A DNA stretch of 64,000 nt, from positions 62,001-126,000 of the forward strand of contig CALWHT010000011.1 in the NCBI GenBank assembly GCA_944380515.1, written 5' to 3'. The stretch is from an uncultured Roseburia sp. (lineage in GTDB: Bacteria > Bacillota > Clostridia > Lachnospirales > Lachnospiraceae). This document shows positions 21,022 to 47,548 of this stretch, piece after piece (position 1 is the first letter of the stretch; each line of letters opens with the position of its first letter). Both the position numbers and the translations under genes were made by a program. The notes under the pieces are model-generated. The model had not been told where the DNA came from. It saw only the letters and a program-made list of their open reading frames with translations, and searched no databases.

Positions 21022-21063
21022 AAAAATCAAGAGTTTGTTGAATTGCAAACTCTTGATTTTTTT
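21022..21063 (+). terminator. Rho-independent terminator of rpmF
   Basis: A 16-bp stem, AAAAATCAAGAGTTTG / CAAACTCTTGATTTTT, with an 8-nt loop and T-tail. The stop codon of the minus-strand fibre gene (21062) lies in its tail. Read on the minus strand, the same hairpin also ends in a T-run (from the A-run at 21022-21026), so it can serve both converging transcripts. Confidence 0.92.
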
Positions 21064-23272
21064 ATTCTGCTTGTTCCAGGTTGTTTATCCGCTCTTCTAA
21101 AGCAGCATTCTTTTCCCAAAGCCTTTGAACCATGTGGGTGTTAAGTGCGATAAATTCTTCGTATCGCAGGGAATAAATATAAACAGGATTTCCGTCATCA
21201 TCTAAGACGGCTGTTTCTCCCTTGATATTTCCGTCATCATCCAAGACATCCTGTATAAGTACATCTTTACAAAACCCGGCAAAATCCAAATCTGTCAATC
21301 CGGCTTCTTCCATTGCCGTTTCTACATCCTGAGAAATAAAACCGATATGTGTTCTTCCGGAATCGCCGTTCTTAAACAAAAACGACACGGGCTGCAGCAG
21401 CAGGAAAAAGTTCTCATATTGCTCCGTTAAGGAAGCGATATCCTTTTTTATATTTCTGTCGGAGGTAGAAATAGTTGTGTTTGCAGCATATATCTGTTTC
21501 CACCGTGCGCCTGGCGTTCCAAGTACGATAGTATTTGTATAGTCAGTAACCGGGCGAAATTGATTCGAATAGAGACAACATTTTACTAAATCATTTCTTA
21601 TTTCAGGCGATGTCGGAGAGTATATATTATAAGCCTGTCCTGTTATAAAGTTGGACGGATTCCAAACATAGCAGTTTACTCCGTCATTGCTTCCCCACAG
21701 CCAGGCAGGTTGTCCGCTTTGGCCGGAATAAACCCAGTTTTTGTTGCAGGATGCGGATGTAGGTATGTAATCGTGTGCATGTGAAGATGGTGGAAAGGTG
21801 CTGGGTTTTCCAGTTACATCGCCCCATGCAACAGATCCTGCACTTTTGGCGTAATTTACACTTTTATTAGCGTCGGCGGTATTATTCACATTTCCCAAGC
21901 CGATATTTGCCGGTGTTATATTGACATTACCGGTACGGTATGCGCTTTCTGCATTTCCTTTGACAGCGACTGTGGCGGGAATGGAGGGCTTATTGGTCAG
22001 GTCATTATAGCTCCCGGTGAATGCCACGGTCTTTAAATCTGCAAACCATTTCATGATTTTTCCAAGCAATGTAGACATCTTTTCTCCACTTGCAAGATTC
22101 TCTCTTACGGAAGCCTGTGTAAATGTTGGTGTCTGGTCGTTTGTCGTTACATTCGGTACATTTCCTAAGCCGATATTTGCCGGCGTTATATTGATGTTTC
22201 CATGCCTGTAGTCCGTTTCTGCCGCACCCTTGACTCCTGTGACGGAGCTGGCGGATAAATTGTCCAATGTAATTTTATCTTCTTTTGACATCAGACCGTC
22301 GATGTCAGCGGTCGCTTTGGGAATCGCATTCGCAGAAATAGCAACCCATTCCAAACCGTTATAGCGGTAGGTGTAGTCGGTGTCCTTTACATTTACTGTC
22401 CAGCCGTCCTGTGGATTCGGGTAGGCAGCGGCAATGTCATCATAGGTATTTACGCTTTCTTTCCAGTCAATATTTGTTTCCAGGGTGGAAAACTTGTTAT
22501 CCACCTCATTTTTGGTGTATTTATCGTTCCAATTGGAAACGGAAGCAGAAGAAATACCGTCTAAAACACTTTGATTGCTATGCGTATGCTTTTGCTGGCT
22601 GGCGGAGTTCCAGGCGGTTCTTTCTTCATCTGTGATATGTATGAATTTATTCGAGAGATGTGAGATCAGTTCCGCGACAGCTTTTGCAAGCTTTCCAAAA
22701 GCGGCGGATAATGTTTCCCCGCTGGTGAGCGGCGTAAGCTCCGCCGCTTCCGCATAGGTCGGTGTCTGGTCATTCGTCGTTACGTTTGGCACATTTCCAA
22801 GTCCGACCTGTTCGGCATCTGTTTTATGCGGGTTATTGTAATCTGTCAGATGGCTTTCCATCTCATCCAGAATGTCGGATTCTGATTCCGAGATCAGTTC
22901 ATCATTCCCGACGACGGCTTTTTCCACGATAATATGAAACGGCAGGGTAGATATTTTATCCGGTCCCTCCTGTATTCTTAATGCGGATTTGGCAATGCCT
23001 GTAATGGCAAGCGCCTGATCGGACAAATCAACCGTTACGGTTCCGTCATCGTTTATGGTTACGCCTGTTTTGTTCCATACATAGTGGCTGTCGGGTTTAC
23101 AGACTTTATAGGAAATAATCATTGTCTCTGGATTCAAGGGAAAGGGTTCTCCGTTGTTTGTCACAACAATACGAACCAATCTTGTGTTTTGATCATCCTG
23201 TACACATCGGACATTTTGAATCCTGGGTATTGTTAAATCCAAAGTAATTTGTTGTGTTGTTGATAAACTCAT
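21062..23272 (-). CDS. tail fibre / receptor-binding protein (BppU-like N-terminus, S74 chaperone)
   Basis: 736 residues from ATG 23272 (AAGGAG just upstream; the frame extends 8 codons further). The N-terminal ~130 residues resemble the baseplate upper protein (BppU) N-terminal domain, which attaches to the tail tip. The middle has modular repeats (NITPANIGLGNV, PNVTTNDQTPT occur twice or more) typical of trimeric fibres. The C-terminal ~110 residues form a peptidase S74 intramolecular chaperone: SDRNIKKDI with the catalytic Ser-Lys region, GFISQDVE, then a coiled coil. It should self-cleave after folding. This is the likely target-specificity protein of the particle and the last gene of the minus-strand cluster. 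Confidence 0.85.
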   Translation of the reverse strand: MSLSTTQQITLDLTIPRIQNVRCVQDDQNTRLVRIVVTNNGEPFPLNPETMIISYKVCKPDSHYVWNKTGVTINDDGTVTVDLSDQALAITGIAKSALRIQEGPDKISTLPFHIIVEKAVVGNDELISESESDILDEMESHLTDYNNPHKTDAEQVGLGNVPNVTTNDQTPTYAEAAELTPLTSGETLSAAFGKLAKAVAELISHLSNKFIHITDEERTAWNSASQQKHTHSNQSVLDGISSASVSNWNDKYTKNEVDNKFSTLETNIDWKESVNTYDDIAAAYPNPQDGWTVNVKDTDYTYRYNGLEWVAISANAIPKATADIDGLMSKEDKITLDNLSASSVTGVKGAAETDYRHGNINITPANIGLGNVPNVTTNDQTPTFTQASVRENLASGEKMSTLLGKIMKWFADLKTVAFTGSYNDLTNKPSIPATVAVKGNAESAYRTGNVNITPANIGLGNVNNTADANKSVNYAKSAGSVAWGDVTGKPSTFPPSSHAHDYIPTSASCNKNWVYSGQSGQPAWLWGSNDGVNCYVWNPSNFITGQAYNIYSPTSPEIRNDLVKCCLYSNQFRPVTDYTNTIVLGTPGARWKQIYAANTTISTSDRNIKKDIASLTEQYENFFLLLQPVSFLFKNGDSGRTHIGFISQDVETAMEEAGLTDLDFAGFCKDVLIQDVLDDDGNIKGETAVLDDDGNPVYIYSLRYEEFIALNTHMVQRLWEKNAALEERINNLEQAE

Positions 23273-23285
23273 TTGCGTCTCCTTC

Positions 23286-24113
23286 CTATAATCCAATCTT
23301 CCGAATGGGAGAGTAGATTATTTTTATGCCGCAGTCCAGATTTGGCGTAAAGGTATTGCAGCGTGTTTCGTAAGTATTTATAATTCGGGGAAAAAAGTAG
23401 TTGAAATCGTTTGCCAGGTCGTGAGACGGGAGAGAGGAACTTATGATCTGATTCTTTCCGTCAATTGATATGATTTCATTTGCCTTGCAGTGATTCAGTT
23501 TCATGATTTTGTGATCCATGGAATTTTCCAGTTTAAAATCCCCGTCGGTTAACAGGGTGATTTCCATATCCGGGAAAAGCGGGTGGTTTAAGTCCGTAAT
23601 CTCATCGGAATTATCATAGAAATCAAAGGGAGTATCTGCCGTACAGTGATATTCCACAGATACTTCGTCCATATACGCAAACGGCGCGTCGGTATACAGT
23701 GTCAGTTCCAGGCCTATGATTTGCCCGTTCAGGGCAATCTGCCTGCTGCTGAAGGTTCCGTTCCAGTAAATATGTTCGAAGCCTTCCTGGTTGATTTTAA
23801 AACGGTGATACCTGTCTTTTCTGCACAGCCAACGCTGCAAAGCGGATACCTCTTCGACAGAAAGAAAAGGTTCCGCCTGTTTTTCCGCAAAAAACGGATT
23901 TTTGCAGATTTGGAAGGCGGCGGACAAGGCAGTTTCGTAAGTAGAAGCATAAAGCAGGAAGCGATTGGAGCCGCCGGGACGGATTTGCTGAAACGTCACA
24001 TCCGCCCCGGAGGAAACGGTTTCCAGTCCGCCGCTGCTGTCAAATTTGCAGACCATCATTTTATAGTCGGAGAGTTTTTCTCCTGCGTATTCAAAATTTG
24101 TAAAATATCCCAT
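23286..24113 (-). CDS. distal tail protein (Dit-like)
   Basis: 275 residues. The start MGYFTNFEYAGEKLSDYKMMVCKFDS, the DVTFQQIRPGG segment and the long beta-rich region fit the siphophage distal tail / tail-component family (gp19.1/Dit) that joins tube to tip. GAGGAGTAGCTT precedes the ATG. Its start lies 3 nt after the upstream 129-residue gene. In most siphophages Dit precedes the tip protein; here the order is tip, small protein, Dit. Confidence 0.78.
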   Translation of the reverse strand: MGYFTNFEYAGEKLSDYKMMVCKFDSSGGLETVSSGADVTFQQIRPGGSNRFLLYASTYETALSAAFQICKNPFFAEKQAEPFLSVEEVSALQRWLCRKDRYHRFKINQEGFEHIYWNGTFSSRQIALNGQIIGLELTLYTDAPFAYMDEVSVEYHCTADTPFDFYDNSDEITDLNHPLFPDMEITLLTDGDFKLENSMDHKIMKLNHCKANEIISIDGKNQIISSSLPSHDLANDFNYFFPRIINTYETRCNTFTPNLDCGIKIIYSPIRKIGL

Positions 24114-24116
24114 AAG

Positions 24117-24506
24117 CTACTCCTCGTCTAAAAGATTGCTCTGTAAAAGTACCAGCAGTGCCTGAGGAGAAATTTTTATATCGGATAAAGCGTTCTTTGC
24201 TATGGCATTCATATTGTCAACATCCACGTCAGACAGAAATAAATCATTCAGCTTCTGATTTAAGGCCTCTTTATCTGTAAAGCTTTTTACGGCCCCGTTT
24301 TCATCGGTAATAATTTCTCCTTGGCTGTCTTTTACAGCGTAATCGGAAATCAATCGGTTTCTTTTTTCATCTATGACTTTTTTTGCCACGGATAATATAT
24401 TTATGTTTTTTGCAATCGTGCAGGCGGTGTTTAAGTCCAGTTCTTTCCCGGATAGGTTGGCGAAAGCGTCGTATAGATTTAAAATGTCAATTGCTTTTAA
24501 TTTCAT
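24117..24506 (-). CDS. small phage protein, DUF1617-like
   Basis: 129 residues, helical, acidic, soluble. The pattern (KAIDILNLYDAFANL, CTIAKNINIL, EALNQKLNDLF) resembles DUF1617-type proteins found beside tail genes of Gram-positive phages. Its role there is unknown. GGAGGAATGAATAA gives a strong start. It sits between the tip and distal tail genes. Confidence 0.65.
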   Translation of the reverse strand: MKLKAIDILNLYDAFANLSGKELDLNTACTIAKNINILSVAKKVIDEKRNRLISDYAVKDSQGEIITDENGAVKSFTDKEALNQKLNDLFLSDVDVDNMNAIAKNALSDIKISPQALLVLLQSNLLDEE

Positions 24507-24545: not shown

Positions 24546-27500
24546 TTACAGTATTTTATTTTCCAGCAGCAGAACTCTGCTGCTCAAGTCTTGAACTCTG
24601 GCAATTAAGGCGGAAAGAGAATCCCCATTAATAATTGCTTCCGAGGCGGTCAAAATTCCTTTTATTGTCATTCCGGATTCATCTACGGTTATGTTGGTTT
24701 TTCCTTGCGGTTGGAAGCGGATTGTACCGAGTTTCGAGCGAAGATATAAATTATTGCCACTGTTTACATATGTATTTGCATCTACCGAATTATCGTAAAG
24801 GCCGCTGCCTAAATGCAGATTATTGGAAGAGCTATAACCCAATATATTATATGTTGTAAAAACAGAAGTCTCAATTTTAATATATTTAGTTGAATCAAGA
24901 ATGATATTTCCATGAAATTCCGGTTCACAATTAAAACTAACTCCATTTATACAATTCAAGTGTGCATCAACTGTTATTCCTGAAAATCCACCATGTAAAT
25001 ATATATGAGAGATATCGTCACCGTCTTCAACATATTCTAAAATTTTTACATAATCATTCCATGAAGCTGACATAGTTTTCATATATAGTGCATCAGAAAC
25101 AATAAAAGAACTTGCTTTCAATGAACCGGACAAAGTAGCATCAGTACATGTCATTTTTCCATTGGCATCTACTGTGAAAGTTCCATTTCCAACATTGATG
25201 GTCCCGCCGTCTATCGTTGCTCCTGATATGACACCACCATTTAAAGTTCCCTCACAAATAATATTACCGGAAAATTTACCTCCACTGGCATTAATATATC
25301 CTTTTACAGACATTCCGTTTGCCGGATCATACGTCAGCGCCCCGTTTCCGAAGCTGACCGAGGATTTTGAAGAGATTTTCCCGGTGTTATCTACGGTGAA
25401 ATTTCCATTCCCGATATTAATCGTGCCCCCGTCAAAGGAGCAGCCATTGATATTTCCCGTCAGATTCAAAGAGCCATTATCGTCCACATAAAAAATATCA
25501 GTATCGCCGTTTGTAATGCAGAGCAGTTTATCCGTGTCGTTCGGGTTTACGGAGAAGGTGTTCCTGCCGTTTGTAATGGCGAGTCCGTCGCCGTTGAATT
25601 GTAAGTTACCGGAAGCATTGTGGATGGAAAGCTTTTCTCCGAGTAAAAGTTCTCCGACGATGGTCTCACCAAGGACACCCATGGCGGTGTGTTTTCCGGA
25701 AGCATCTGCATAGATATATTTTCCGATGGCCGCTTTTACGGTTTTCCAGTCGTCATCCGTGCAATAGAGTCCGTTTCCGAATACACGGATTTGGCAGTTA
25801 TCGTAGGCATCGGTGATATCATCGTACTGTCTGCACCAGATTCCGTTCTTATCAATTACGATGTCCTGTGAGTAAGGATTGTTGATGATTCCTGCCGTTG
25901 CGTAAAATCCTTCCTTTACCCAATTCTGGACGAAGTCAGATGACGCGGCGGATTTGTTTACCTGTTGAGTCAGGCTTGAATAAGAACCGGAAATTGCGGC
26001 GGCGCTGTTTAAAATACTCTGTATGTCGCTTGTTCCGTTTCCGGTTTCTTTTACTGTGGAAAACGCTACGCTGAGGCTTTCCAGGCTGTCAAAGGATAAT
26101 TCATACGATATAAGACGCAGTCTGTATACCGCATCGTCAATTTTGGCCCGAATCCAGTTTCCGCAAGCAAAGGAATCATGCAAAGGTGCAAAGTCCGGTA
26201 TGTTTAATAAATTATTTATTGTGGCGGTCATGGAGTATTGAGGGTGAGAGGCTTTCGAGAGTTCCCTTTGTGCCGTATCGTACAATTCCTGCGCACGGGC
26301 AAGGACTTCTGCATTATTGAGACCATCGGAAATATAGTTATCGTTTTGATATTTATCCTCTCTTCGGTAGGAACAGAATATTTTCCATAAATCGGACCCT
26401 AAATAGGTTTGCAGATTTAAAGAAGTTTTTACCGTATTCATTTCTTCGTTTATAAAATCTGCCATAGACTGAATATAGGAATATTGCCGGTTTCTTACTG
26501 TCAATTCGGCGTCAATATATGTTTTTCTTTTGGAATAGAAATCGTACATGTTCTGATATGCAGTTTCTTCAAAATCCGATTTGGCATTCACAATAATGTT
26601 GATACATGACACAAATTCTTTGCTCAGTGATGTGAGGGGAGTGATTCCGTACAGGTGCAGGCGGTTTTGAAACGTCGTTTCATCCATATCCATACTTGTG
26701 ATGTTTAAGGCATCATTTAAACTGGATTTGTTCATTGCCCTTTGGATTTGCTGCCGGATATAATTTACCTCGTCATCATTGAATACAATGGTCAGTTCGT
26801 CTGTTTCTCTGGTCTCGGTTTTATCCGCAATCGAGGTTAATTTAATTTTTCCTTTCCATGTACCGGTTTGGCCTTTTGTGTAGGACGAATCGACAATCGA
26901 AATATCGTACAGTGCGGTATTGATCAGAACCTTTACCATACCGGTAACCGCATTGTCGGCACTTGTTTTTATCAGTGTGGAGGGGGTGGAAACGGAAATT
27001 GGAGACAAATTGGAAACAGTCAGCAGCTTCATAGCGTCGTCTATGGTCTGATGATCCGTCTCGACGGTTGGGAGCATGGCGGATGACAGGAATAAATCAG
27101 CGTCCACCGTGTCGTAGTATGCGGCCGTCAGATTCTGATAGCCGTTGATGGGAGCACTCAGCTCCTGAAATTCACTGTCCGGGAAATAATTTTTGATATA
27201 GGAAATTACAGAATTATAATTCGACAGGACAGAAGCAGGAACAGAAAATTGCTGCTCATATTTGTATTTGTTAAATAACGCATTGTAAGAAGCCAGTTTA
27301 TCGGCAAGCGTTTGCGGCATATGCCTGGTTGATTCGCTGTGGAACGCGTAGATATATTCGCTTCCGTTCGGATTGATATTGCGGACAGCGGCAGTGATTG
27401 TTTCATCACCTCCCTCGATTTTAAAGCAGTTTTTTAAAGAAGAGGCATCGCTTTCTAATTTCAGCTCTGAGGCGAGATTCTGGCAGGAAATAAAAACCGC

Positions 27501-28271
27501 AGTGTCTGTCCCGTACTGTCCGCTGAAGTTTTTAGTTCCGCATTTGGGACAGGCATCCTGAAAATCTCCACGGTAGCCGCAGTTCTGGCACGTATTGTAT
27601 AAATCATATGCAAAAACAGTTCTTGTTATGGAATCAAACAGGAATAATACGCCGTATTCCTCTGCGATTTCTCCGGTTAATACGCTGTAAATATCCGTAT
27701 CGTTGACGGTGAACTGCTTGACGCTGGTAAGTTTTGCGAGAGATTCGTCCACATGGCCGATTTCGTAGTTGGATGCTTTCTCCAACAGGCGGTGAAGAAG
27801 TGAAGAACCCCGGAGCTTTTCGTATATTTCGCTCCCTTTCTCATAGCCTGACAAATCCCTGTAAAACAGGGTAGGGTAGTTTTCATCGTAATCGGGTCTT
27901 GCAATATCATTTTCGGTGTTGATTTCGATGTCATATAATTTTGTCTGAGACAATTCCGATTCGCAAAGAGAAGTTCCAGTCACCGTTTTTTGGACAGAGC
28001 CGTTTTCGGATTTTGATACGGTAATTTCAAAACGTTCCTCAAGCTCCGGAACATACAGAACTGCTGTATCAACGATAGAATCCCATATGTCGCAGGCTTT
28101 TCCGTTTACATATTTATAAATCAGGAAAGATATTTCGTCTGCGGCATTGAAATTTTCTTTATAGGTTAATTCGGAAGCATTTGTAATGCTTCCGATAGTA
28201 TCAAAATTTTTATTCTGTAATATGAGCGTCGGCATATCCAGATGTTGTTGATGAAACAGATTTTTTATCAT
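24546..28271 (-). CDS. tail tip / tail-associated structural protein (Tal-like)
   Basis: 1241 residues from ATG 28271 (AGGAGG upstream; the frame reaches 28286). The N-terminal ~400 residues show the gp27/Tal-like tail-hub pattern of Gram-positive phages. A four-Cys zinc ribbon is inserted at about 240-262 (CQNCGYRGDF...CPKCGTKNF), with a further Cys nearby. The middle is helical. The C-terminal ~400 residues hold beta-helix repeats (DGGTINIGNGNFTVD, DGGTINVGNGTFTVD), a fibre-like extension, and end in a short coiled coil (LIARVQDLSSRVLLLE). No peptidase motif was seen. It probably forms the tip that contacts the fibre. Confidence 0.8.
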   Translation of the reverse strand: MIKNLFHQQHLDMPTLILQNKNFDTIGSITNASELTYKENFNAADEISFLIYKYVNGKACDIWDSIVDTAVLYVPELEERFEITVSKSENGSVQKTVTGTSLCESELSQTKLYDIEINTENDIARPDYDENYPTLFYRDLSGYEKGSEIYEKLRGSSLLHRLLEKASNYEIGHVDESLAKLTSVKQFTVNDTDIYSVLTGEIAEEYGVLFLFDSITRTVFAYDLYNTCQNCGYRGDFQDACPKCGTKNFSGQYGTDTAVFISCQNLASELKLESDASSLKNCFKIEGGDETITAAVRNINPNGSEYIYAFHSESTRHMPQTLADKLASYNALFNKYKYEQQFSVPASVLSNYNSVISYIKNYFPDSEFQELSAPINGYQNLTAAYYDTVDADLFLSSAMLPTVETDHQTIDDAMKLLTVSNLSPISVSTPSTLIKTSADNAVTGMVKVLINTALYDISIVDSSYTKGQTGTWKGKIKLTSIADKTETRETDELTIVFNDDEVNYIRQQIQRAMNKSSLNDALNITSMDMDETTFQNRLHLYGITPLTSLSKEFVSCINIIVNAKSDFEETAYQNMYDFYSKRKTYIDAELTVRNRQYSYIQSMADFINEEMNTVKTSLNLQTYLGSDLWKIFCSYRREDKYQNDNYISDGLNNAEVLARAQELYDTAQRELSKASHPQYSMTATINNLLNIPDFAPLHDSFACGNWIRAKIDDAVYRLRLISYELSFDSLESLSVAFSTVKETGNGTSDIQSILNSAAAISGSYSSLTQQVNKSAASSDFVQNWVKEGFYATAGIINNPYSQDIVIDKNGIWCRQYDDITDAYDNCQIRVFGNGLYCTDDDWKTVKAAIGKYIYADASGKHTAMGVLGETIVGELLLGEKLSIHNASGNLQFNGDGLAITNGRNTFSVNPNDTDKLLCITNGDTDIFYVDDNGSLNLTGNINGCSFDGGTINIGNGNFTVDNTGKISSKSSVSFGNGALTYDPANGMSVKGYINASGGKFSGNIICEGTLNGGVISGATIDGGTINVGNGTFTVDANGKMTCTDATLSGSLKASSFIVSDALYMKTMSASWNDYVKILEYVEDGDDISHIYLHGGFSGITVDAHLNCINGVSFNCEPEFHGNIILDSTKYIKIETSVFTTYNILGYSSSNNLHLGSGLYDNSVDANTYVNSGNNLYLRSKLGTIRFQPQGKTNITVDESGMTIKGILTASEAIINGDSLSALIARVQDLSSRVLLLENKIL

Positions 28272-28282
28272 TCCAGACCTCC

Positions 28283-28540
28283 TCACAGCCGCTTTTTCAT
28301 GGCATGAATGTCGTTTGCCATATCTAAAAGCAGCTCGTCATATTTTGTTTTCCGGCGGTTTAAGTCTTCAATCAAAGTCTGATAGGTTTTTCTCAGATTG
28401 CTGATTGCCGTAATGCTTTCTTTCGCGTGTATGTTTTCATAGATCGCGAGCTGCTGTTTTAAACAGGTATTTTCCTCGCGCAGCTGCTGATTTTCTCTGG
28501 TTAATCGCTGAAGTTTTAATTCTTTTGGGTGTAGATACAT
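28283..28540 (-). CDS. small coiled-coil protein in tail cluster
   Basis: 85 residues, almost wholly heptad-like (LQRLTRENQQLREENTCLKQ). Located between tape measure and tip genes; 12 nt before the tip start. Function unknown. Position and coiled coil suggest an assembly or tip-complex part. Confidence 0.7.
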   Translation of the reverse strand: MYLHPKELKLQRLTRENQQLREENTCLKQQLAIYENIHAKESITAISNLRKTYQTLIEDLNRRKTKYDELLLDMANDIHAMKKRL

Positions 28541-35307: not shown

Positions 35308-35409
35308 CATTTTATAAAAAATATAAAAGTTCATTTGGTAATGTTTGTACGTAATTTTTCACATAGTAGGGGTGCTGCTATGCAACACCTGTTTTGAAAA
35401 GTTCCCCCA

Positions 35410-35432
35410 GGGCCGGCGATTCACGCCGGCCC
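35410..35432 (-). terminator. GC-rich hairpin after the 68-residue gene
   Basis: A perfect 9-bp stem GGGCCGGCG / CGCCGGCCC with 5-nt loop, 10 nt after the stop of the small minus-strand gene. No U-tract on either side, so terminator function is uncertain. Confidence 0.45.
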
Positions 35433-35442
35433 TTCCTGCCGG

Positions 35443-35799: not shown

Positions 35800-35829
35800 T
35801 ATCATCACCTCGCAGGTAATAATAGCATA

Positions 35830-38140: not shown

Positions 38141-38449
38141 CTATGGGGTCTTGCCAAACAGGGAACCGATGAAACTTTTTACGAGATCATAAGAAGTGGT
38201 TGCTCCGACGGCATTGGCGAGACCCATGCAGACGGCGTATAAAACGGTAGCGCCGGTGATTGCCAGGCCGTTTTTTCCATAATAGAGAAAGATTTCAGCA
38301 ATTCCAACGGCCATAGAAGTGATCAGTGCGATGAGAACGCTGTTGTATGTAAGCTTTGCGGCGGCAAGAATGGTTTTTATAAGCTGTATGGCCGCGGATG
38401 TGGCGGCGGCGGATGTAACTAAAATAGTAATAAATAATTCGAAGGTCAT
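38141..38449 (-). CDS. holin-like membrane protein
   Basis: 102 residues, three predicted membrane helices (about 4-27, 37-59, 62-86) and a short C-terminal tail. AAAAAGGAGAAACC precedes the ATG. It lies between lysin and the coiled-coil membrane protein. Size, topology and place fit a holin, which makes membrane lesions for lysin release. No family named with certainty. Confidence 0.75.
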   Translation of the reverse strand: MTFELFITILVTSAAATSAAIQLIKTILAAAKLTYNSVLIALITSMAVGIAEIFLYYGKNGLAITGATVLYAVCMGLANAVGATTSYDLVKSFIGSLFGKTP

Positions 38450-39330: not shown

Positions 39331-39380
39331 ATATGATTCCTCCATTGCATTGTTATAAACGTGAGTCATAAGACGCACGC

Positions 39381-40214: not shown

Positions 40215-40982
40215 TTATTGGTTATTGTGATTAAAGTTTTGAAACCACGCGTTTGCGTCAAAATGATGATCCTTGTCTCCGTATGCGGCGACGCTCATCG
40301 ACTGGATATCGTAAATGCTGTTGCTGCAGGTACGGTAAAAGGCGTCCCATAGTTGATAAACTGTAATATCCCAGATATTATAGATGTTTAACGACGGGCT
40401 TTTATTCGCGACAGCGGAAATAATATTTCCGATTTCCATATTTTTGTCCGCCTTCGCATGCAGCTTTTTATTTTCCCTGCCCTTCTGCAATTTCTGCATA
40501 ATAGACAAGGCGCGTTTGCTTTTAATCTTTGACAAATCATCATTTTTCGGTTTCAGGTAATTGCGCTGTAAAATAATATCACAGAGCTGTGACCATAGTT
40601 CCCTGGAAACAAAGCCCGAACATTCAGACTGCTTTTCGTCCTCATACAGCAAAAAAGCCCGGTGCTCTTTGTTGTATTTCGGAGCTGCCGTTAAAAAGAA
40701 ATCGAGCATTGCCTCGAGCGTGGGAAGCATGCCGGAATCCGAAGTCAGTAAATCGAATATGTCAAGCGATGCCTGCTCCTGGTGAGAGAGACGCTCATAA
40801 ATACCGGTCTGCTGTACGAGTGTATAGTAGGATTCCGGTGTCATTGACAGAATAGACAGATACATCTGGTAGACAGGATAGGACAATCTGCTGATTTCCC
40901 GCAGCGTAGGGCATTTTACGCCGCCGATATAATCAAAGTACATCGGCTCCGGAGATAATAAATGAAAATAGTCCAGTTTCAA
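40215..40982 (-). CDS. tail-cluster protein, possible tail assembly chaperone
   Basis: 255 residues from TTG 40982, which is preceded by CAGGAGGTTACATA. Helical, soluble, no clear family. N-terminus (FDYIGGVKCPTLREISRL) and place directly before the tube gene suggest the gpG-like tape-measure chaperone role, but in most phages that gene lies between tube and tape measure, and no frameshift site was found. Confidence 0.55.
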   Translation of the reverse strand: MKLDYFHLLSPEPMYFDYIGGVKCPTLREISRLSYPVYQMYLSILSMTPESYYTLVQQTGIYERLSHQEQASLDIFDLLTSDSGMLPTLEAMLDFFLTAAPKYNKEHRAFLLYEDEKQSECSGFVSRELWSQLCDIILQRNYLKPKNDDLSKIKSKRALSIMQKLQKGRENKKLHAKADKNMEIGNIISAVANKSPSLNIYNIWDITVYQLWDAFYRTCSNSIYDIQSMSVAAYGDKDHHFDANAWFQNFNHNNQ

Positions 40983-41066: not shown

Positions 41067-41185
41067 AGAGCGAAGTGAGAAATGTTTGTGAAGGGTTTGA
41101 TGGCGACGTGGCGTTTGCCGTGTCTGATTTTCGGTGTTTCCATACGTGATATATACACACGGGGAAATTGCGGAATTGATTGAAT

Positions 41186-42076
41186 TTAAGCGGAAAATGA
41201 AGTATTTCTATTTGTGGCTGACCTTTTTTGATTGTATTTTCGGTAGGTCTGTAATCGGTGCAGGGCCAGGCAGGAGCTGCAATACATTTTTTTATTGCCG
41301 GTGTTTTCAATCAATGCGCCGCATTGTTTGCAGCGCTTATAACCCTTTCTGGAATTTTGGGGCAGGCCGCACGCCCGTTTCTGCCATTTCCGGATTTCCC
41401 CGTCCAGACAGCGGTTTATGTAGCCGCCGTAGAAGTGGTCCTCCAGCATAAAATTAAACCGCGTGGAAATACAGGACTTATCCTCGTATTCCTCAATGCG
41501 CCTGCAATTTTCGAAGCATTTATATAAGAAGCCTTCGACTGTTTTTTTATAATCCTTCCACGGCAGCGTCATTTTTTCCATTTGGAGCCGCTTTTTCGCT
41601 GCCTGGGCTTCTTCCATTGCCTTAAGAATCGCATCGGTTACGGCGGAGGCATCCATAGCAGTTCCCAAAGCCCATTTATAATACAGCCGTTTTGGTGTTT
41701 TCAGGCATTCCAGATATGTTTCCCCGAGAATCACTTCCCTGTCAAAATATCTGGTATAAAGGTTATTGATTTTCTGTCGGATTACAGAGCACCAGTGGTC
41801 ATCCGTCGTTTTTGACTTATAATAGGTGTATGGAATGTCGGACCACTGCCGGAAAATCCGTCCGATTTCGGTGTCGGCCAAATCCTTTCTCACTTTAAAA
41901 TGGATTGTTTTCGTGTAGGTTTTGCGTTTGTTGCCGGAGGCCCAAAGTGCAGCGCAGAAAGAACGGAAAATTTCATCCTTTTCTTCCCGTGATGCCGCAT
42001 CCTTGTAATCCTCGATGATTTCATATAAGTACAGTTCGTTACATTCGTATATTGTTATCCCCCTCCCTAAGCTCAT
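41186..42076 (-). CDS. unknown zinc-ribbon protein downstream of the RNA polymerase
   Basis: About 296 residues from ATG 42076, overlapping the polymerase 3' end by 38 nt. The start is uncertain: GGGAGGGGG (42066-42058) would suit a start near an ATA codon a few residues further on. The body is helical with several Trp/Tyr. The C-terminus is a four-Cys zinc ribbon (CKQCGALIENTGNKKMYCSSC) followed by a basic tail (HRLQTYRKYNQKR). Likely DNA/RNA-binding; overlap with the polymerase gene suggests a linked job (for example promoter recognition). No family recognised. Confidence 0.7.
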   Translation of the reverse strand: MSLGRGITIYECNELYLYEIIEDYKDAASREEKDEIFRSFCAALWASGNKRKTYTKTIHFKVRKDLADTEIGRIFRQWSDIPYTYYKSKTTDDHWCSVIRQKINNLYTRYFDREVILGETYLECLKTPKRLYYKWALGTAMDASAVTDAILKAMEEAQAAKKRLQMEKMTLPWKDYKKTVEGFLYKCFENCRRIEEYEDKSCISTRFNFMLEDHFYGGYINRCLDGEIRKWQKRACGLPQNSRKGYKRCKQCGALIENTGNKKMYCSSCLALHRLQTYRKYNQKRSATNRNTSFSA

Positions 42077-43034
42077 AATATTTCCCGAGATACTCATAGG
42101 AGCCCTTCGTGTTGCCCGGGACCTCCTGTATCGACAGCCTTTTTGCCGCGCCGCTGTGTTCTCTAAGGTTTTGCAGTAAATAGTCTCCGTATGCCGCCCA
42201 TGCGAAGGACTTGCTGATGGAGACGGAAGCATAGGAGGCCTTGATTACGTAATTTGCGATCAGCGCTTCGTCCATGGAAAGCTCCCGTTTTAGCGCAGCC
42301 TTATACTCATTGACAATCAGTTCGTAGTGAAAGCTGCCGCCCGCGGTTTTGCCGTCTTTCTTTTGAGATAAATGCGTTTTCAGGTTGGCCGCATAGTGAT
42401 TGATGTATCTTCTGCAGATGCGCAGTACATTTTTGTCGGTCAGATCGAGGCCGTCCTTTACGACCAGGCGGGCGGTATCCGCTAAATCGCCGATGCCTTT
42501 GTCCCACAAAATATGTTTTTTCTCCCAGGTACAGATATAATCACACAATTCATTCATGGGAGAAGGAGAGTGGTACGCGTTTGGCGTTACCGTTTCATCC
42601 GTATCTGCACATTGCTTTTTTTTGCCGAGAAGGGCTTTGTAGGTATCCATTTTGTCCGGATAATGATACAGCAAAAAATAAGGAAGTTGCTTTAAGTGCT
42701 TTTTTAAAGCACTGTTCATGTGCCAGCGAACGCCTGTTTTTAAGAAGTCGATTTCCTTCCCCTGAAAAACCCGCAGGAGGGAGGCTGCATCCTCATACCG
42801 CTTCCGGACAGCTTCCTCTGTCGTGTAGCGGTTTTCTATGCTGGTCGCGGCATTGGTAATTTCGCCAATCCGGCTGTCCCTGGTCATAATTTCATATTCA
42901 ATTAAGTTTTCTTTTGTGTAAGGCTTCGGCCGGGCGGCAGTCTTGTCCTCGATGTCAAGGATGATAGGCTTGTCAATTCTGGAGGCTGCGACCAACGGAT
43001 CGTCACACAAAAAGAATATGTCCCCGTCAAAATC
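42039..43034 (-). CDS. two-barrel (YonO/QDE-1-type) RNA polymerase, exon 2
   Basis: 331 codons plus stop, read on from exon 1 without a start of its own (TTG 43010 in the frame has no RBS). It begins with GAT TTT GAC GGG GAC, giving DFDGD, the metal-binding signature of two-barrel RNA polymerases, then IFFLCDDP. The remaining ~320 residues are helical with a conserved-looking HIL/KKH region. In the spliced protein DFDGD is residues 545-549 of 875, close to the size of SPbeta YonO (~900). Confidence 0.75.
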   Translation of the reverse strand, partial: DFDGDIFFLCDDPLVAASRIDKPIILDIEDKTAARPKPYTKENLIEYEIMTRDSRIGEITNAATSIENRYTTEEAVRKRYEDAASLLRVFQGKEIDFLKTGVRWHMNSALKKHLKQLPYFLLYHYPDKMDTYKALLGKKKQCADTDETVTPNAYHSPSPMNELCDYICTWEKKHILWDKGIGDLADTARLVVKDGLDLTDKNVLRICRRYINHYAANLKTHLSQKKDGKTAGGSFHYELIVNEYKAALKRELSMDEALIANYVIKASYASVSISKSFAWAAYGDYLLQNLREHSGAAKRLSIQEVPGNTKGSYEYLGKYYELREGDNNIRM

Positions 43035-43414
43035 CCGCTTTGGAGGTTTCCAAAGCCTGACTATATCTTCATCCGTTTTACTGTCACCGCAAAACGGAGT
43101 TCTGCGCTACCCGTCCATGAATTTCACATGGATGGTCTTTGAGCCCGATTTTGCGTATTTCGCGCGTAAATCAGAACTCAGGTTAGTCGATGAACCTTTT
43201 TCTATACGAAAGCAGGACTTCGTACAGAAACTTGGCACAGAGATTGGCTGCGTGCGCACAGCTTCCCCTGTCAGCATAATTGTTAATTACCCATTTCCTG
43301 GTAAAAACGAACGCCAATTACACACCCTGTAGGTACAGGTTCACAGAATATCAACTGCCCGTAACGGACAGAAGCTATACATTACTGTATAGGGAGCCGA
43401 TGAGAAAAGGGGCC
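43035..43414 (-). ncRNA. group I intron (380 nt) in the RNA polymerase gene
   Basis: Minus strand. The 5' splice site is set by P1: exon GGAGCU pairs with intron GGCUCC (43398-43393), leaving the last exon U opposite a G, as group I introns need. P10: ATC (43401-43399) next to that guide pairs with GAT, the first exon-2 codon. P7: GACTA (43188-43184) with TAGTC inside AAGATATAGTC (43069-43059), the S element. GTAATTGGCG (43321-43312) is the P3/P4 strand. The last intron base is G (43035). Splicing restores the frame as ...GGA GCT | GAT TTT GAC..., i.e. GGADFDGD. No ORF, so not self-homing. Confidence 0.88.
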
Positions 43415-45046
43415 AGCTCCGCCTTGCTGGGGCGCCGAGATATCGTGCATATTGAACATGACGATATCCTGGTCTTTGAAATAGGAAAACCATTTGTCAA
43501 TAAACGTATTCCGCACATTTTTCAGTTGGTTGACCTCCGAGGGGTCAACCAGCGGAGAGCGGAAGGAAATGCAATCTCCCGGAGAAAAATTTCCGCTGTA
43601 TATTTCCCGCTCGCCAAGGCATCCCTCGGGGGTCTGCCCGACTGCGTATTGCAGATAGCCTGCCATATCGCCAACGCCGGTATGATAAAACCCGGAACAG
43701 TAGATTTTGCCGACCTTTGCCTCATCAATGGATTTTTTTAATTTTCGGTAAATGAACTGTTTTACGGCAGGATCCTTTAGCATTTTCGGATTGATGAGCG
43801 CAGCTTTCAGATAGCAGCTTTCCGGCTCTGAATGTTCCGTGTCGGTGATGCCCATAAATTTGCAGGTGTAAAAGGGCTCCCCTTTGATAATTTTTTCAAA
43901 TAAATCGGTCGTGTATCGGGCAAGCTTTACGATTTTTCCGTCATTGGCACAATCCAGAATATCGTAATCCGCAAGTGTGTGGTTTTCGTAACTGTCGATA
44001 TAGTTTGGATTCCATAAATCCAGGCACTGTAAATACTGGAAATTCATGCGCGTATATTTGTTCAGATGCCGGATATGGTGGCTGTATTTACTGATGCCGA
44101 GCTTGAAATCGTACTTCTTTAAGGTATTCATGTATGCCAGCCAGGCATCGCTGCCGTAGTTTTCCTGAAATAATTTGTGTCCCTTGAACATCGAGGTATT
44201 CCAGATACAGTCGATGGTATCGATGGGATGCACCTGACCGTAAATGTCCGTGATGGACTCGTAGCCCCATTCCTTTAAAATCCGGCGGAAGGGGACATAG
44301 ACGGAATATCCCTTGATGAATGGCAGGCGTATCTGGCTGCCGACGGCAGGATAATCGAGTCCAAGCTGGGCGCTTGTGATTTCCATAAACTCTTTTTCGT
44401 GACAGCCGCATCCGTCAAAGGGGGATAGATGAATGTCGCGATAGCCCTCCTCAATTTCCCTGGATTTATATTTTTTTCGTTCTCCCGTCTCTTTGTCCTC
44501 ATATTCCCTTTCTTTTTCCACGACATATTTGATGAACTGATGGGGAAGCGTTTTTTCGTACTCTCCGATAATGACGATGTTCGGCATATAATTCCGGATT
44601 AGTGTGCAGGTACTGAATACCAGGCATCGCTGCGCTTCATATTTGGATATGATGCATTCGTCAATCGGCAGATCCATCTGTGTAATCCGGTACAGCTCGT
44701 CAAAAAGGGCGTCGCATACAAAGGCGGTAATGCCGTCCTTGGCCTGTGAAGCTGACTTGCCGAAGCGCGAATAATGAATTCCGTTATAGAAAAATCCATG
44801 CTCCAAAATATGGCGAAGCGCCGCCTCCTGTTTTGGATTCTTTTTCGCAACGACAAGAATCAATTCTTCGATATGGCTGGAAATGGAGCCGCGCAGCCGT
44901 TGGATCTGGTCGAACAGAAGCGAATCGCCCTGTGCGATCAGGTATTCATTTTTGATTTCTTCCTGCCTGTCCATTGTGACATTATATTCCTGCCGGATGA
45001 GTTCCTTGATTGGAATTTTGATTAATGTATATTGTATCTGTTTCAC
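43415..45046 (-). CDS. two-barrel (YonO/QDE-1-type) RNA polymerase, exon 1
   Basis: 544 codons from GTG 45046 (GGAGGTGATTTCC upstream). Without splicing it reads on 11 codons into the intron and stops at 43382. The C-terminal 100 residues hold the block expected before the catalytic loop: CISFRSPLVDPSEVNQLKNV, then MFNMHDISAPQQGGA, which runs into DFDGD of exon 2. The family includes SPbeta YonO, a single-chain DNA-dependent RNA polymerase, and eukaryotic RNA-dependent polymerases; genome context favours the phage type. Its likely job is transcription of the tail cluster downstream. Confidence 0.78.
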
Positions 45047-45215
45047 TGGAAATCACCTCCGTTTGTCTTTCCCTTGCTTCGATTGCCCTGCGGCAGCGTT
45101 CATCAAATCTCCAGTCGGAGAGAATTCTTCCCGCGATGTCGGACGAGTGCAGGCGGGCGTCCGTGTTATAATCCGATTGGAAAATGAGGCCGCCAAAAGT
45201 ATTTGCTTTTTTCAT
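44982..45215 (-). CDS. small protein preceding the RNA polymerase
   Basis: 77 residues from ATG 45215, preceded by AAAAGGAGAAGTG. Its 3' end overlaps the polymerase start by 65 nt in another frame. The middle is helical and charged (ILSDWRFDERCRRAIEARE). No family. The strong RBS supports it; the C-terminal part inside the polymerase gene is less convincing. Confidence 0.45.
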   Translation of the reverse strand: MKKANTFGGLIFQSDYNTDARLHSSDIAGRILSDWRFDERCRRAIEARERQTEVISSETDTIYINQNSNQGTHPAGI

Positions 45216-45392: not shown

Positions 45393-45406
45393 AAAACAAA
45401 TGTTCG
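45393..45406. promoter_or_regulatory. LexA-box-like site 1
   Basis: AAAAC-AAAT-GTTCG: the right half is perfect, the left half has two mismatches to the Gram-positive LexA box CGAAC-N4-GTTCG. It lies upstream of the plus-strand -35 and over the likely minus-strand promoter region toward the polymerase. Confidence 0.5.
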
Positions 45407-45416: not shown

Positions 45417-45445
45417 TTGACACGAACAAATGTTTGGATTATAAT
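45417..45445 (+). promoter_or_regulatory. consensus SigA promoter of the sigma/DUF262 genes
   Basis: TTGACA (45417-45422), 17-nt spacer, TATAAT (45440-45445), both perfect. The spacer is filled by a LexA-like box, so repression would be expected to be tight and release strong. An inverted repeat AATTGTT / AACAATT follows at 45449-45469. Confidence 0.88.
45423..45436. promoter_or_regulatory. LexA-box-like site 2 (SOS operator)
   Basis: CGAACAAATGTTTG fits CGAACRNRYGTTYG, the Gram-positive LexA box pattern, at every position. It lies between -35 and -10 of the strong plus-strand promoter. SOS control is typical of prophage and tailocin switches. Confidence 0.75.
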
Positions 45446-45506: not shown

Positions 45507-46064
45507 ATGAAAACAGAAGAATATTTATATGCCTATTATCAGAATGGGGCGAAGAAGCTCTGCCGTGTGGTAGACCGTATTTTAGCAAGGTTCGGCGGCG
45601 TCAGTGATATGGATAGGGACGATTTTTATTCGGCGGCCAATGAAGTCATGGCGAATATATGCCGTACCTATGATAATGTTCAGAATTTCGACGGATATGT
45701 CTATTCGTGCCTGTCAAATAAAATCAAGACGGAAATGACAAAGAGAAACAGGGAAAAAAGAAAATCGGACCGGCAGGCCGTTTCCATCGACACTCCGCTG
45801 GGAGAGGACGAAGCGACGCTTCAGGACCTGTTGGTATCGGACTTCGATATCGAAAAGGAGGTATTCGGTGAAGAAGCGGCGGAGGGCGGCAGGCTGGAAG
45901 CATACTTAAGCAGGCTTTCGGACCTTCAAAGGGGAATCGTGGAGCTTTTGGCAGCCGGCTATAAGGCGGGTGAGATTCAGAGAAAGCTGCAAATTACCGG
46001 TCGGAAATATCACGATTGTATGCAGGCAATCCAGTCTTATGAGAATGTTCGGATATTAATGTAA
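45507..46064 (+). CDS. phage-type sigma factor
   Basis: 185 residues. Sigma70 region-2-like part at about 30-95 (DDFYSAANEVMANICRTYDNVQNFDGYVYSCLSNKIK), a linker with a D/E stretch, and a region-4-like helix-turn-helix at about 130-180 (LSDLQRGIVELLAAGYKAGEIQRKL). No region 1 or 3. It is the first gene of the SOS-type transcript and diverges from the polymerase gene, so it could direct host RNA polymerase to the minus-strand cluster. GGGGAGAGTTACC precedes the ATG. Confidence 0.8.
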   Translation: MKTEEYLYAYYQNGAKKLCRVVDRILARFGGVSDMDRDDFYSAANEVMANICRTYDNVQNFDGYVYSCLSNKIKTEMTKRNREKRKSDRQAVSIDTPLGEDEATLQDLLVSDFDIEKEVFGEEAAEGGRLEAYLSRLSDLQRGIVELLAAGYKAGEIQRKLQITGRKYHDCMQAIQSYENVRILM

Positions 46065-46081
46065 GAGGAATAGGGGTTATT

Positions 46082-47548
46082 ATGTCAATAAGGAAAATCA
46101 GAAAACAGACGCTTTCCCTGAGTTCTTATTTGGATAAGGTGAGGGAGGAGGATGTCAGAAGCGACCAGGAGGTTCAGCGTTTATCCGGTGCATGGGACGC
46201 CGGGATGGTGAACGAGCTGGTGGCGACCGTCCTCACCGACGACTACATACCACCGATTATCCTGGGAGAGGAACAGTTGACCGATGCGGTGCAGCAGTGG
46301 ATTATTGACGGTCTTCAGCGAAGCTCGTCGCTTTTGCGGTTCCGATACGGAAACTGCCGGATTACGTCGGCCATTGAGAACAGCAGGATTGAATATCAGA
46401 AAAAGAAGCTCGACGCGTCGGGAAAAATATGCAGGGATGAGGACGACAATATCATTTGGGAGTCCATGCAGTTTGACATCAGAGGGAAGACCTTCGATGA
46501 GCTTCCGGCGGAATTAAAAAAGAATTTTGATGACTATCAGATTGAAATGGTCATTCATCAGGACTGCACGATGGATATGATTTCAAAATTAGTGCGCAGA
46601 TACAATAACCATAAGCCCATGAATGCGGCGCAGAGGGCGTTTACCTATCTGGACAAATACGCAAGGAAGATTCGGGGCATTACGGAGCACCGTTTTTTTA
46701 AAGACTGCGGGGAATACACGGAGACGGAAAAGAAAAACGGAGTATATGAGAGAATCGTGGCCGAATCGGTCATGGCGATGTTTCATCTGGACCACTGGCA
46801 GAAAAACGGAAAGAAAATGGGAATGTATCTGAATGAGAACGCTTCGGAGAAAGAATTTGACGCGTTTGAGAAGGTGCTCGATGGCCTGTCACAGGTGGTC
46901 GGAGGGCGTTTTTCGGAAATATTTACGAGCAAGGATTCCTTTCTGTGGTTTACGCTGTATCACAGATTTCTTGCGCTTGGCGTAAGGGAGGATAAATTTG
47001 CGGAGTTCCTCGGTGCGTTCCGGGAAAGTTTGCACGACCGAAGCTTTGCGGAGTACGGCAACGAGACATTTGACAGTCTGGATGCCAATAAATCGACGAA
47101 GGATAAGAAGGTAATCATGCAAAAGCTGGATATGCTCGAAAAGCTGATGCTGGAATTTTTGCATCTGCATGGGGATGGGCCGTTGTCGAAAGCAAAGGAG
47201 GAGGAAACGGACGCTGATGTGTCTGTCCTTGATTTTGTGCGGGAGCACGTGAAGCCTGATGCAACGGAGGAAGATATCGATATGTATTATGATATGCTCG
47301 ACGGGTACAGGGTGGATAAGCGCTCTGCGCTGCTTTGCTGGCGCAATGAGCCTTCGATGATCGGCATTGTGGCGTATTCGGTGGAAAATGATATGGATTT
47401 GGATGACTGGATGGTCCGGTACTTTGCGAAAAACCGTACCTATAAGCAAAACCAGGCAGAGAATTACAGAGATATGAAGGAGGATTTGCAAAAATATATG
47501 GAGCAAAACAGGGCCGCCAAAGATAAATCGGTAACTTGTGTGTTGTAG
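46082..47548 (+). CDS. DUF262/ParB-like protein
   Basis: 488 residues, 17 nt after the sigma gene. Residues ~30-130 have the DUF262 (GmrSD N-terminal, ParB/Srx fold) layout with the IIDGLQRSSSLLRF motif; the DGxQR core binds or hydrolyses nucleotides in relatives. The rest is helical. No HNH nuclease motif was seen in the C-terminal half, so it is not a complete GmrSD restriction enzyme. Co-transcription with the sigma factor under the SOS-like operator suggests a regulatory part in the island. Confidence 0.7.
   Translation: MSIRKIRKQTLSLSSYLDKVREEDVRSDQEVQRLSGAWDAGMVNELVATVLTDDYIPPIILGEEQLTDAVQQWIIDGLQRSSSLLRFRYGNCRITSAIENSRIEYQKKKLDASGKICRDEDDNIIWESMQFDIRGKTFDELPAELKKNFDDYQIEMVIHQDCTMDMISKLVRRYNNHKPMNAAQRAFTYLDKYARKIRGITEHRFFKDCGEYTETEKKNGVYERIVAESVMAMFHLDHWQKNGKKMGMYLNENASEKEFDAFEKVLDGLSQVVGGRFSEIFTSKDSFLWFTLYHRFLALGVREDKFAEFLGAFRESLHDRSFAEYGNETFDSLDANKSTKDKKVIMQKLDMLEKLMLEFLHLHGDGPLSKAKEEETDADVSVLDFVREHVKPDATEEDIDMYYDMLDGYRVDKRSALLCWRNEPSMIGIVAYSVENDMDLDDWMVRYFAKNRTYKQNQAENYRDMKEDLQKYMEQNRAAKDKSVTCVL

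Follow-up and report, generated by a model that had tools for sequence, protein, structure and literature searches.

A candidate head-less F-type tailocin with its own two-barrel RNA polymerase in an uncultured Roseburia sp.

Our analysis indicates that positions 21062-47548 of the window (the whole 64,000-nucleotide stretch of DNA analysed) probably encode a domesticated head-less F-type tailocin, which would derive from an SPbeta-like temperate phage and be driven by LexA and then by its own polymerase. By Pfam and PHROGs, the region holds a siphophage tail and lysis set with no head and no sheath, and a YonO/QDE-1-type two-barrel RNA polymerase comes first in it. Genes for a sigma factor and a DUF262 protein on the plus strand diverge from this minus-strand set. 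The source genome is 3.07 Mb and 99.85% complete. The island lies between rpmF and DUF624-plsX, as originally predicted, with the end of rpmF corrected to 21006; the rpmF-plsX site was empty in 16 of the 18 further same-genus loci fetched.

The 18 island proteins were searched against Pfam and PHROGs, and two flanking proteins against Pfam as well. The features are as follows.

21062..23296, minus: receptor-binding fibre (BppU_N, PF10651, and Peptidase_S74 chaperone, PF13884; phrog_7121)
23286..24113, minus: distal tail protein (Dit, DUF6558; PF20195, E 2e-29; PF20753, E 1e-31)
24117..24506, minus: phrog_1401 protein, no function assigned (E 1e-12)
24546..28286, minus: tail tip or minor tail protein (phrog_6211, E 3.9e-25)
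28283..28540, minus: 85-aa ORF, coiled-coil-like, weak matches only
28569..34750, minus: tape measure C-terminal exon (phrog_4211, E 7.8e-12; homologues in relatives)
34750..36429 (ends approximate), minus: putative tape measure insert of group I topology (P3/P7 pseudoknot)
34876-35307, strand opposite to the insert: 143-aa zinc-ribbon ORF inside the tape measure insert
36430..37569, minus: tape measure N-terminal exon (PF10145, PhageMin_Tail, E 5e-19; phrog_4211, E 4.5e-50)
37605..38120, minus: p171, small conserved protein preceding the tape measure gene in phages and tailocins (phrog_4105/phrog_4257)
38141..38449, minus: holin-like membrane protein, from place and sequence (61% identical to its homologue in G218)
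38473..39378, minus: lysin, ELLD (PF25309, E 6.7e-66) and peptidoglycan-binding (PF01471)
39435..40166, minus: tail tube protein (phrog_2729, E 2.7e-49; dN/dS 0.035)
40215..40982, minus: tail assembly chaperone-like protein, role suggested by place (phrog_4051, unknown function, E 1.9e-33)
41137..41166, minus: candidate polymerase promoter TTCCCCGTGTGTATATATCACGTATGGAAA, a 30-bp motif that directly follows the polymerase module
41186..42073, minus: p296Zn, C-terminal zinc ribbon (26-row alignment), next after the polymerase in tailocins and phages
42039..43034, minus: RNA polymerase exon 2, starting DFDGDIFFLC (by alignment)
43035..43414, minus: probable group I intron of 380 nt in phase 0 (RF00028, 48.8 bits, E 2.5e-11)
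43415..45046, minus: RNA polymerase exon 1, residues 1-544, ending QQGGA (phrog_8308, E 2e-51)
44982..45215, minus: small ORF p77, head of the polymerase operon (dN/dS 0.26)
45393..45406, plus: second LexA-like box AAAACAAATGTTCG, 30 bp from the first
45423..45436, plus: LexA box CGAACAAATGTTTG, pattern shared with the promoters of the genome's recA and lexA
45507..46064, plus: sigma-70-like factor, 185 aa (TIGR02937, sigma70-ECF superfamily; phrog_1740, E 1.4e-5)
46082..47548, plus: DUF262/GmrSD_N-type protein, 488 aa (PF03235, E 4.2e-9, over the cut-off)

These searches bore out the minus-strand tube, tape measure, tip, distal tail protein, S74 fibre and lysin of the original prediction. Tube, tape measure, tip and fibre without a sheath, together with the ELLD lysin and a holin assigned from its place, are features of F-type tailocins. 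No matched family gives the holin its name. PHROGs classes the tube family, phrog_2729, as head and packaging (virion structural protein), and its member in phage PJN02 carries the name tail tube protein. The earlier gene set stood, but the polymerase and tape measure genes proved to be interrupted, each by a group I or group I-like insert; introns, derivation from phages and the promoter motif had been absent from that reading. In the tape measure gene the group I-like insert is about 1.7 kb long, and its P3/P7 pseudoknot is supported by compensatory changes in three homologues. It had no Rfam match, and Rfam searches of stretches of relatives returned tRNA only.

That a two-barrel RNA polymerase heads the tail set agrees with the phrog_8308 match, the DFDGD loop and the QDE-1-like fold of a relative; the match to PF05183 was weak (E 0.0037, 16.5 bits against a cut-off of 23.8). 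The fold comes from a model (pLDDT 80) built for the intact protein of locus L047 in place of the window protein; this model resembled QDE-1 with E 2.7e-17 and a TM score of about 0.5. A search of solved structures by sequence with the polymerase profile gave nothing relevant. The DxDGD loop is present, and D545, D547, G548 and D549 are invariant in 27 intact relatives. The intron sits exactly before the first catalytic Asp codon of DFDGD, and the boundary of exon 1 was set by alignment with four intronless relatives; the gene is uninterrupted in relatives. The RF00028 gathering score is 50, against which the window intron scores 48.8 bits and its copy in locus L046 scores 50.1. Frameshift decay of the polymerase gene was rejected because the break, a probable group I intron, falls between two codons and the relatives are intact.

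Upstream of the polymerase, many loci of tailocins and phages have a p77 homologue. The AF2 model of p296Zn (pLDDT 88) matched no PDB fold below E 0.8. p296Zn and the C-terminus of the SPR polymerase have in common a 30-residue zinc ribbon (hhalign E 2.8e-5, probability 74), and a comparison of p296Zn with TR-TP1 gp4 found them not related. SPbeta YonO is reported to carry out DNA-dependent transcription of late genes, reading the structural and lysis genes as one operon; its promoter sequence and any extra factors are given there as still to be determined (PMC5467207).

The 19-nt core of the candidate promoter motif has one exact match in the genome. In 34 of 38 loci the motif scored better than each of 200 shuffles, and these include 17 of the 18 loci that were unseen when it was picked. 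Its signal was weak in two loci (L058, L064) and its position shifted in two others (L062, L066), and no convincing site was found after the SPR, TR-TP1 and CB457P1 polymerases.

On the other side of the operon, the sigma and DUF262 genes diverge under the two LexA-like boxes, as had been predicted. The sigma-70-like factor matched TIGR02937 with E 1.1e-9 and 38.1 bits, under the cut-off of 42.9. Of the 20 tailocin-type loci tested, 18 have predicted LexA boxes no more than 1.5 kb upstream of the polymerase, against 0 of the 16 phage-type loci (nominal Fisher p 4e-8), and 13 of the 20 have box pairs 28-33 bp apart. The exceptions are L059, without a LexA box, and L052, with its box at -1588; L066, L067 and L068 have single LexA boxes elsewhere in the locus. 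Genome-wide, the LexA patterns were fewer (3+2 strand matches, at four places) than those of a reversed-pattern control (7+4), so the evidence is which genes carry the patterns and not their number. The boxes are of the same type as those of the host recA and lexA, which predicts control by DNA damage.

Two collection scans gave 45 loci, of which 18 are head-less and 20 phage-type, with polymerases 60-77% identical to that of the window; L100 and L057 are one organism. Relatives with such loci include the cultured Clostridium sp. chh4-2 (L060), Clostridium sp. MCC353 (L069) and Bacterium C-53 (L063), whose records carry no MAG label. The gene set, which the original prediction had proposed to seek in related genomes, thus recurs in head-less form in 18 of 45 loci, other species among them, and these loci agree in which functional subset they retain and which they have lost. 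In five large phages, sigma-DUF262 and the polymerase are separate, 20-43 kb from each other and divergent, and DUF262 homologues occur in five of the seven related phage records of at least 97 kb. Since large phages carry the pair, the idea that sigma-DUF262 is a tailocin invention was rejected. The island looks like such a large phage minus its early block and its head block, and may have descended from one by two deletions. In the tree, the tailocin-type polymerases are scattered at several places among phages. A single origin of all of them was rejected (AU p 1.3e-5, for a group named after the tree was seen); they are not one clade, so that either this type has had more than one origin or there has been gene exchange.

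No island protein had a Pfam or PHROGs match better than E 0.03 to a sheath, capsid, portal, terminase, protease or integrase family, and no packaging or replication family was matched either. The families that mark a complete SPbeta-like phage (head, packaging, replication, integration) were thus not matched on the island. Stray sub-threshold matches were to a terminase (phrog_34048, E 0.059), a scaffold (phrog_206, E 0.088), an integrase (phrog_7685, E 0.038, on the lysin) and a transposase (phrog_2199, E 0.061). A split prophage carrying head, terminase or integrase genes had been named as evidence against the prediction; a search of the own genome limited to PF05135, PF03237, PF04860 and the terminase of the related phage G325 gave no match.

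We considered whether the island is a decaying, functionless remnant, left by chance deletions of an SPbeta-like phage. The tailocin-type polymerases found in several places among phages would fit this, as would locus L054, a stump with the polymerase, p296Zn and 77 aa of the tube followed by host genes, and the island of L057, which is cut by an unrelated prophage. In G299, pieces of fibre and tape measure genes are found, along with several paralogous fibre cassettes. However, between the window and L046, the one genome pair compared, each of the 12 island genes or exons tested had a dN/dS within 0.035-0.26, with no gaps and one stop, which lies within the DUF262 gene of L046. The island genes are under purifying selection against this one relative, on the sequence data. 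The recurrence of one kept and one lost subset, and the restriction of LexA boxes upstream of the polymerase to the head-less type, also argue against decay, which we regard as quite improbable. Equally little weight, or slightly less, falls to a phage satellite or split prophage, in which the tails would be given to, or completed by, the heads of a co-resident or infecting relative. Tail parts and the promoter motif are common to phages (the tube is 63-65% identical to those of G305 and G327), which makes it conceivable that a superinfecting relative takes part in mixed assembly, and in two islands, G253 and G273, a tyrosine recombinase lies close to the fibre end. Against this, known phage satellites usually retain packaging or capsid-altering genes, and the island matched no terminase, packaging or replication family. 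The G325 terminase had no relative in any of the 10 tailocin-type host genomes searched, while other portal or terminase genes occur elsewhere in some such hosts (G273, G299, G306, G301 and G302).

A tail particle could also serve something besides killing, such as prophage exclusion, export or lysis-mediated release of cargo. Particle function is not readable from sequence, and no toxin cargo was identified on the island, which would suit such a purpose; but the receptor-binding fibre with its S74 chaperone, the paralogous fibre cassettes of G299 and the SOS and lysis layout all resemble bactericidal tailocins, and we consider the idea unlikely. It concerns purpose only and is compatible with the rest of the preferred explanation. 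A domesticated long-tail particle with its own transcription system, as originally proposed, is thus the best-supported reading, in view of the recurrence in 18 of 45 loci, purifying selection, the LexA boxes in the divergent promoter and the lack of the related phage's terminase in the host genome.

The gene set, the absence of head genes on the island, the intron position, the LexA boxes, the conserved motif with its place and the purifying selection are read from the sequence, and we infer from these LexA binding, splicing, promoter use, roles of sigma and DUF262, particle assembly and killing. The ancestor would be an SPbeta-like temperate phage whose late genes were read by a phage-encoded two-barrel RNA polymerase. 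Upon DNA damage, LexA would leave the paired boxes in the divergent promoter, and the host polymerase would then express sigma-DUF262 and the polymerase operon. Group I splicing would complete the DFDGD loop of the phage-type polymerase, which, probably with p296Zn, would start at the TATATATCA..TATGGAAA element and read the operon of about 20 kb in order: chaperone, tube, lysin, holin, tape measure, tip and fibre. Tails would assemble without heads, the holin and lysin would free them, and the fibre would pick related target cells.

F-type tailocins such as F-pyocin, rhizoviticin and the listerial monocin have a non-contractile tail, fibre, regulators and lysis genes, have lost the head genes and are under SOS-type control. 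The island is like them in its genes for a non-contractile tail, fibre and lysis and in its lost head genes, and would share their SOS-type control. Unlike them, it adds the two-barrel phage RNA polymerase, the zinc-ribbon partner and sigma-DUF262; its polymerase operon has LexA boxes upstream, and the tail genes are preceded by a promoter-like motif. Rhizoviticin is described in PMC10811719. As in SPbeta, TR-TP1, CB457P1 and the IMG/VR phages L094 and L098, the polymerase heads late genes; the tail gene order is that of phage G325, and some SPbeta-like phages also have group I introns in the polymerase gene. Unlike SPbeta-like phages, the island has LexA boxes at its polymerase operon and is without early/replication and head/packaging blocks. 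R-type diffocins and clostridial R-type tailocins are also phage-tail bacteriocins of Clostridia, but these are contractile, whereas the island has no sheath or capsid match; capsid genes appear conserved in Gram-positive R-type tailocins according to a review (PMC10538166). In the literature searched, at the level of titles and listings, we found no link of YonO or a phage RNA polymerase to tailocins, which agrees with the original statement that such a dedicated transcription system is undescribed for them.

More tentatively, the islands might form a recurrent, undescribed tailocin class, in which an identical pair of losses several times turned SPbeta-like Lachnospiraceae phages into a two-stage SOS amplifier. 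Its input could be the paired LexA boxes and sigma-DUF262, joined directly to the polymerase, and its output may be the two-barrel RNA polymerase with a private promoter, reading only tail and lysis genes; we hold both parts to be plausible but short of probable. Group I splicing at the catalytic codon of the polymerase is a possible extra gate in the window lineage.

If the preferred explanation is true, a private transcription system can be part of a tailocin, and the promoter of a YonO-type RNA polymerase becomes a directly testable question. The phage and tailocin pairs suggest a stepwise conversion of phage into weapon, and the gut Lachnospiraceae would possess a recurring antibacterial weapon of which we found no report in the literature searched.

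Profile searches of the proteins encoded in the island (21062-47548) matched siphophage tail and lysis families, namely a BppU_N/S74 fibre, a DUF6558 Dit, a minor tail protein, tape measure, lysin, tube and a phrog_4051 protein, followed by family matches for the polymerase, sigma and DUF262. No sheath, capsid, portal, terminase, protease or integrase match better than E 0.03 was found among the island proteins submitted. This bears out the original prediction of a tail and lysis set without head or sheath, with sigma and DUF262 genes alongside the polymerase. On its gene content, the island is an F-type-tailocin-like system with private transcription and putative tailocin activity. In the library searched, no paper joined tailocin, RNA polymerase and Lachnospiraceae; the three that paired phage tail-like with Lachnospiraceae were, by their titles, dietary or clinical.

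The island is flanked by rpmF (end 21006) and DUF624-plsX. A sample of 30 genomes of the genus gave plsX matches in 26, and 20 of the loci were retrieved. The expected occupation of the rpmF-plsX site was seen in the own locus and in G338 (apparently the same assembly as the relative L046), where the island is present and rpmF is not near plsX, but not in 16 of the 18 other loci, where rpmF is close to plsX; a DUF624 match lies between them in 9. In the other two (L130, L134), the stretch fetched contained no rpmF.

Relatives of the polymerase were found at 26 loci in genome_contigs. Sixteen (L046, L047, L049-L053, L057, L058, L060-L064, L069, L071) have tail genes with no head genes seen after p296Zn, the zinc-ribbon protein gene that follows the polymerase. 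One is a stump (L054), three show only the sigma-DUF262 neighbour (L055, L059, L065), two are unclassed (L048, L070), and four were taken as phage-type (L056, L066, L067, L068), the class of L067 and L068 resting on upstream genes because both loci end at p296Zn. The 19 viral_contigs loci comprised 16 phage-type, two tailocin-type (L100, from the same organism as L057, and L101) and one unclassed (L096). Of the 20 phage-type loci, 8 show a terminase match in the locus itself or in its record (L066, L091, L097, L098, L102, L103, L104, L107), and phage record G323 shows a portal match; most of the remaining loci owe their class to phosphatase, exonuclease or HU genes that follow p296Zn, or to genes upstream. 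In a family sample, exon 1 of the polymerase matched 21 of 299 genomes, with at least 65% identity in five: the own genome and the organisms of L047, L053, L063 and L069.

Decay of the reading frames, which would have counted against the original prediction, was not seen relative to L046 in the 12 island genes or exons compared: they align without gaps and with one stop, in the L046 DUF262 gene, whose ORF still spans 483 of 488 aa. The dN/dS values of these 12, obtained against L046 alone, were 0.035-0.26 (plsX, 0.007); tip, Dit and fibre fall outside this set because the L046 sequence stops within the tape measure gene.

The AF2 model of the intact L047 polymerase (pLDDT 80) matched fungal QDE-1 (E 2.7e-17) and plant RDR2. 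Judging from this relative's model, the polymerase is a two-barrel enzyme, as had been proposed, and of the YonO kind. Exon 1 in the window has 544 codons and ends ...QQGGA, and exon 2 starts DFDGD; the alignment shows this motif region unbroken in four relatives. The intron and related breaks are:

43035-43414, 380 nt: polymerase intron, RF00028 48.8 bits, E 2.5e-11, just below the cut-off of 50
L066:11642-12016 (phage-type): related intron at the same insertion point as in the window, 33.7 bits
CB457P1 (L044), ~1745-3053: polymerase gene breaks, one just inside the motif and a group I intron further on, 46.8 bits
SPR (L136), 5799-6078: weak group I match downstream of the motif, 19.7 bits

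The L046 copy of the intron reaches 50.1 bits (cut-off 50), and the expected splice junction, GCT to GAT, falls between codons. The CB457P1 break inside the catalytic motif had no Rfam match. YonO-type phage polymerase genes repeatedly contain group I introns or breaks that resemble them, either at or close to the catalytic DxDGD codons or downstream of these. In L089, L095 and L096, an extra reading frame of 230-268 aa splits the gene elsewhere, with an intein or a homing-endonuclease intron as candidates.

The tape measure gene carries an insert of ~1.7 kb, of which ~450 nt show 72% identity with L057 island 17677-18147 and with a stretch of L042. The three copies share a P3/P7 pseudoknot and P8, and the P7 helix, chosen by eye, is paired in all 18 cells and shows two double-sided changes; sliding it by 1-3 columns leaves 5-10 of the 18 paired. 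An Rfam search of the insert gave no match. In G253, G273 and G306, too, the tape measure frame is interrupted a short way past a KN[LV]G motif; in G302 and G303 the break lies nearby, without the exact motif. A small zinc-ribbon protein gene (34876-35307, opposite strand) lies inside the insert, and its relatives lie near tape measure genes in L051, L053, L064 and G302.

The fibre regions of some relatives have further features. L075 (G299:66001-82000) has several paralogous fibre cassettes, long direct repeats and inverted repeats of up to 112 nt, which suggests fibre switching by recombination. Tyrosine recombinases adjoining fibre genes in two islands (G253:C56:58173-59186, G273:C46:57371-58360) may be either a leftover integrase or a fibre-switch enzyme. 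In L080 (G306), where island gene order is rearranged, two genes at 9038-10884 are situated between fibre and tape measure genes: one matches a glycosyltransferase in Pfam, and the other resembles one by eye.

A TTTTnnnnTnnTATATATCAnGTATGGAAA-like sequence, with TATATATACAGTATAGGA as second form, was found 16-61 nt past the p296Zn stop, and was picked by eye from 20 of 38 loci. A leave-one-out matrix outscored every one of 200 shuffles in 16 of the 19 tailocin-type loci and in 18 of the 19 of phage type; among the 18 loci that had not been seen before, some of them near copies of seen ones, it did so in 17. The motif is weak but correctly placed in L058 and L064, and sites lie further on in L062 and L066. 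Mean pairwise identity, with 7 of 38 rows dropped (five near copies, two displaced), was 0.63 within the motif, against 0.40 in the upstream flank and 0.28 in the downstream flank. In the own genome the 19-nt core is matched exactly at a single place, which is in the island, and with two mismatches at one more. The motif is a candidate promoter for the polymerase, and its position may parallel that of the SPbeta late promoter, yonK being the gene that follows yonO. PMC5467207 reports that 37 SPbeta late genes are silent without YonO and that YonO transcription begins upstream of yonK, and states that the promoter sequence was undetermined.

Regulation was addressed through LexA boxes. The pattern CGAACNNNYGTTYG occurs at four places in the own genome: one is the island promoter, where LexA-like boxes had been claimed, two are at recA and lexA, and the fourth is unexplained. 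The reversed pattern matched more often (7+4), and the evidence therefore lies in which genes carry the boxes. A second scan used a regular expression set with knowledge of the window and G218 boxes; 18 of 20 tailocin-type loci (L054, L055, L059 and L065 included) had boxes in the 1.5 kb upstream of the polymerase, versus 0 of 16 phage-type loci (Fisher p 4e-8, nominal because the rows are related), with 0.01-0.09 expected per locus from shuffles. The two misses were L052 (box at -1588) and L059 (no box). The scan left out the window, a near copy of L046, and L100, a near copy of L057, as well as L090 (a copy of L091) and, for too little upstream sequence, L050, L093, L095 and L106. Over whole loci, L066, L067 and L068 carry one box each elsewhere. 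Paired boxes 28-33 bp apart were found in 13 of the 20 loci (30 in the window), wider pairs in L064 (44) and L071 (261), and single boxes in L053, L057 and L061, L057 having a relaxed second one at 33. A perfect LexA-type palindrome also lies near response-regulator-like and hydrolase-like genes in L088 (G000:C65:6231).

The polymerase tree intersperses 23 tailocin rows with 21 phage rows (6 more are unclassed), and well-supported branches force at least three changes. A single tailocin clade was rejected (AU test p 1.3e-5, on 21 vs 18 rows after removal of 10 that were far, short or copied). The window tube is 63-65% identical to the tubes of two phages, G305 and G327; the p251/p271 tube type of phage G323 occurs in other tailocins. 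Repeated conversion and module exchange fit the tree and the split tube types alike.

The island's modules are also present in complete-looking phages; in G325 the order is terminase, portal, capsid-like protein, p159, tube, p171, tape measure. DUF262 homologues were found in five of seven phage records of at least 97 kb (G323, G325, G326, G328, G332), each adjoining or fused with a sigma homologue, and a weak one in CB457P1; none was found in G329, G330 or TR-TP1. Sigma and DUF262 form a single protein in five tailocin-type loci (L051, L055, L058, L063, L071) and probably, judging by length, in L065 and L101, and the fusion suggests that the two act together. The phage unit is divergent from the polymerase at about 43 kb (G323), 28 kb (G325), 21 kb (G332), 20 kb (G328) and, only if the record is circular, 21 kb (G326), versus 461 bp in the window; the island thus looks like such a phage after inferred loss of the early and head blocks. 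Three of the five phage units each have one LexA box nearby, at about 380 bp in G325 and G326 and 1.3 kb in G323, so the island may have joined the SOS input of the phage directly to its output enzyme, the polymerase.
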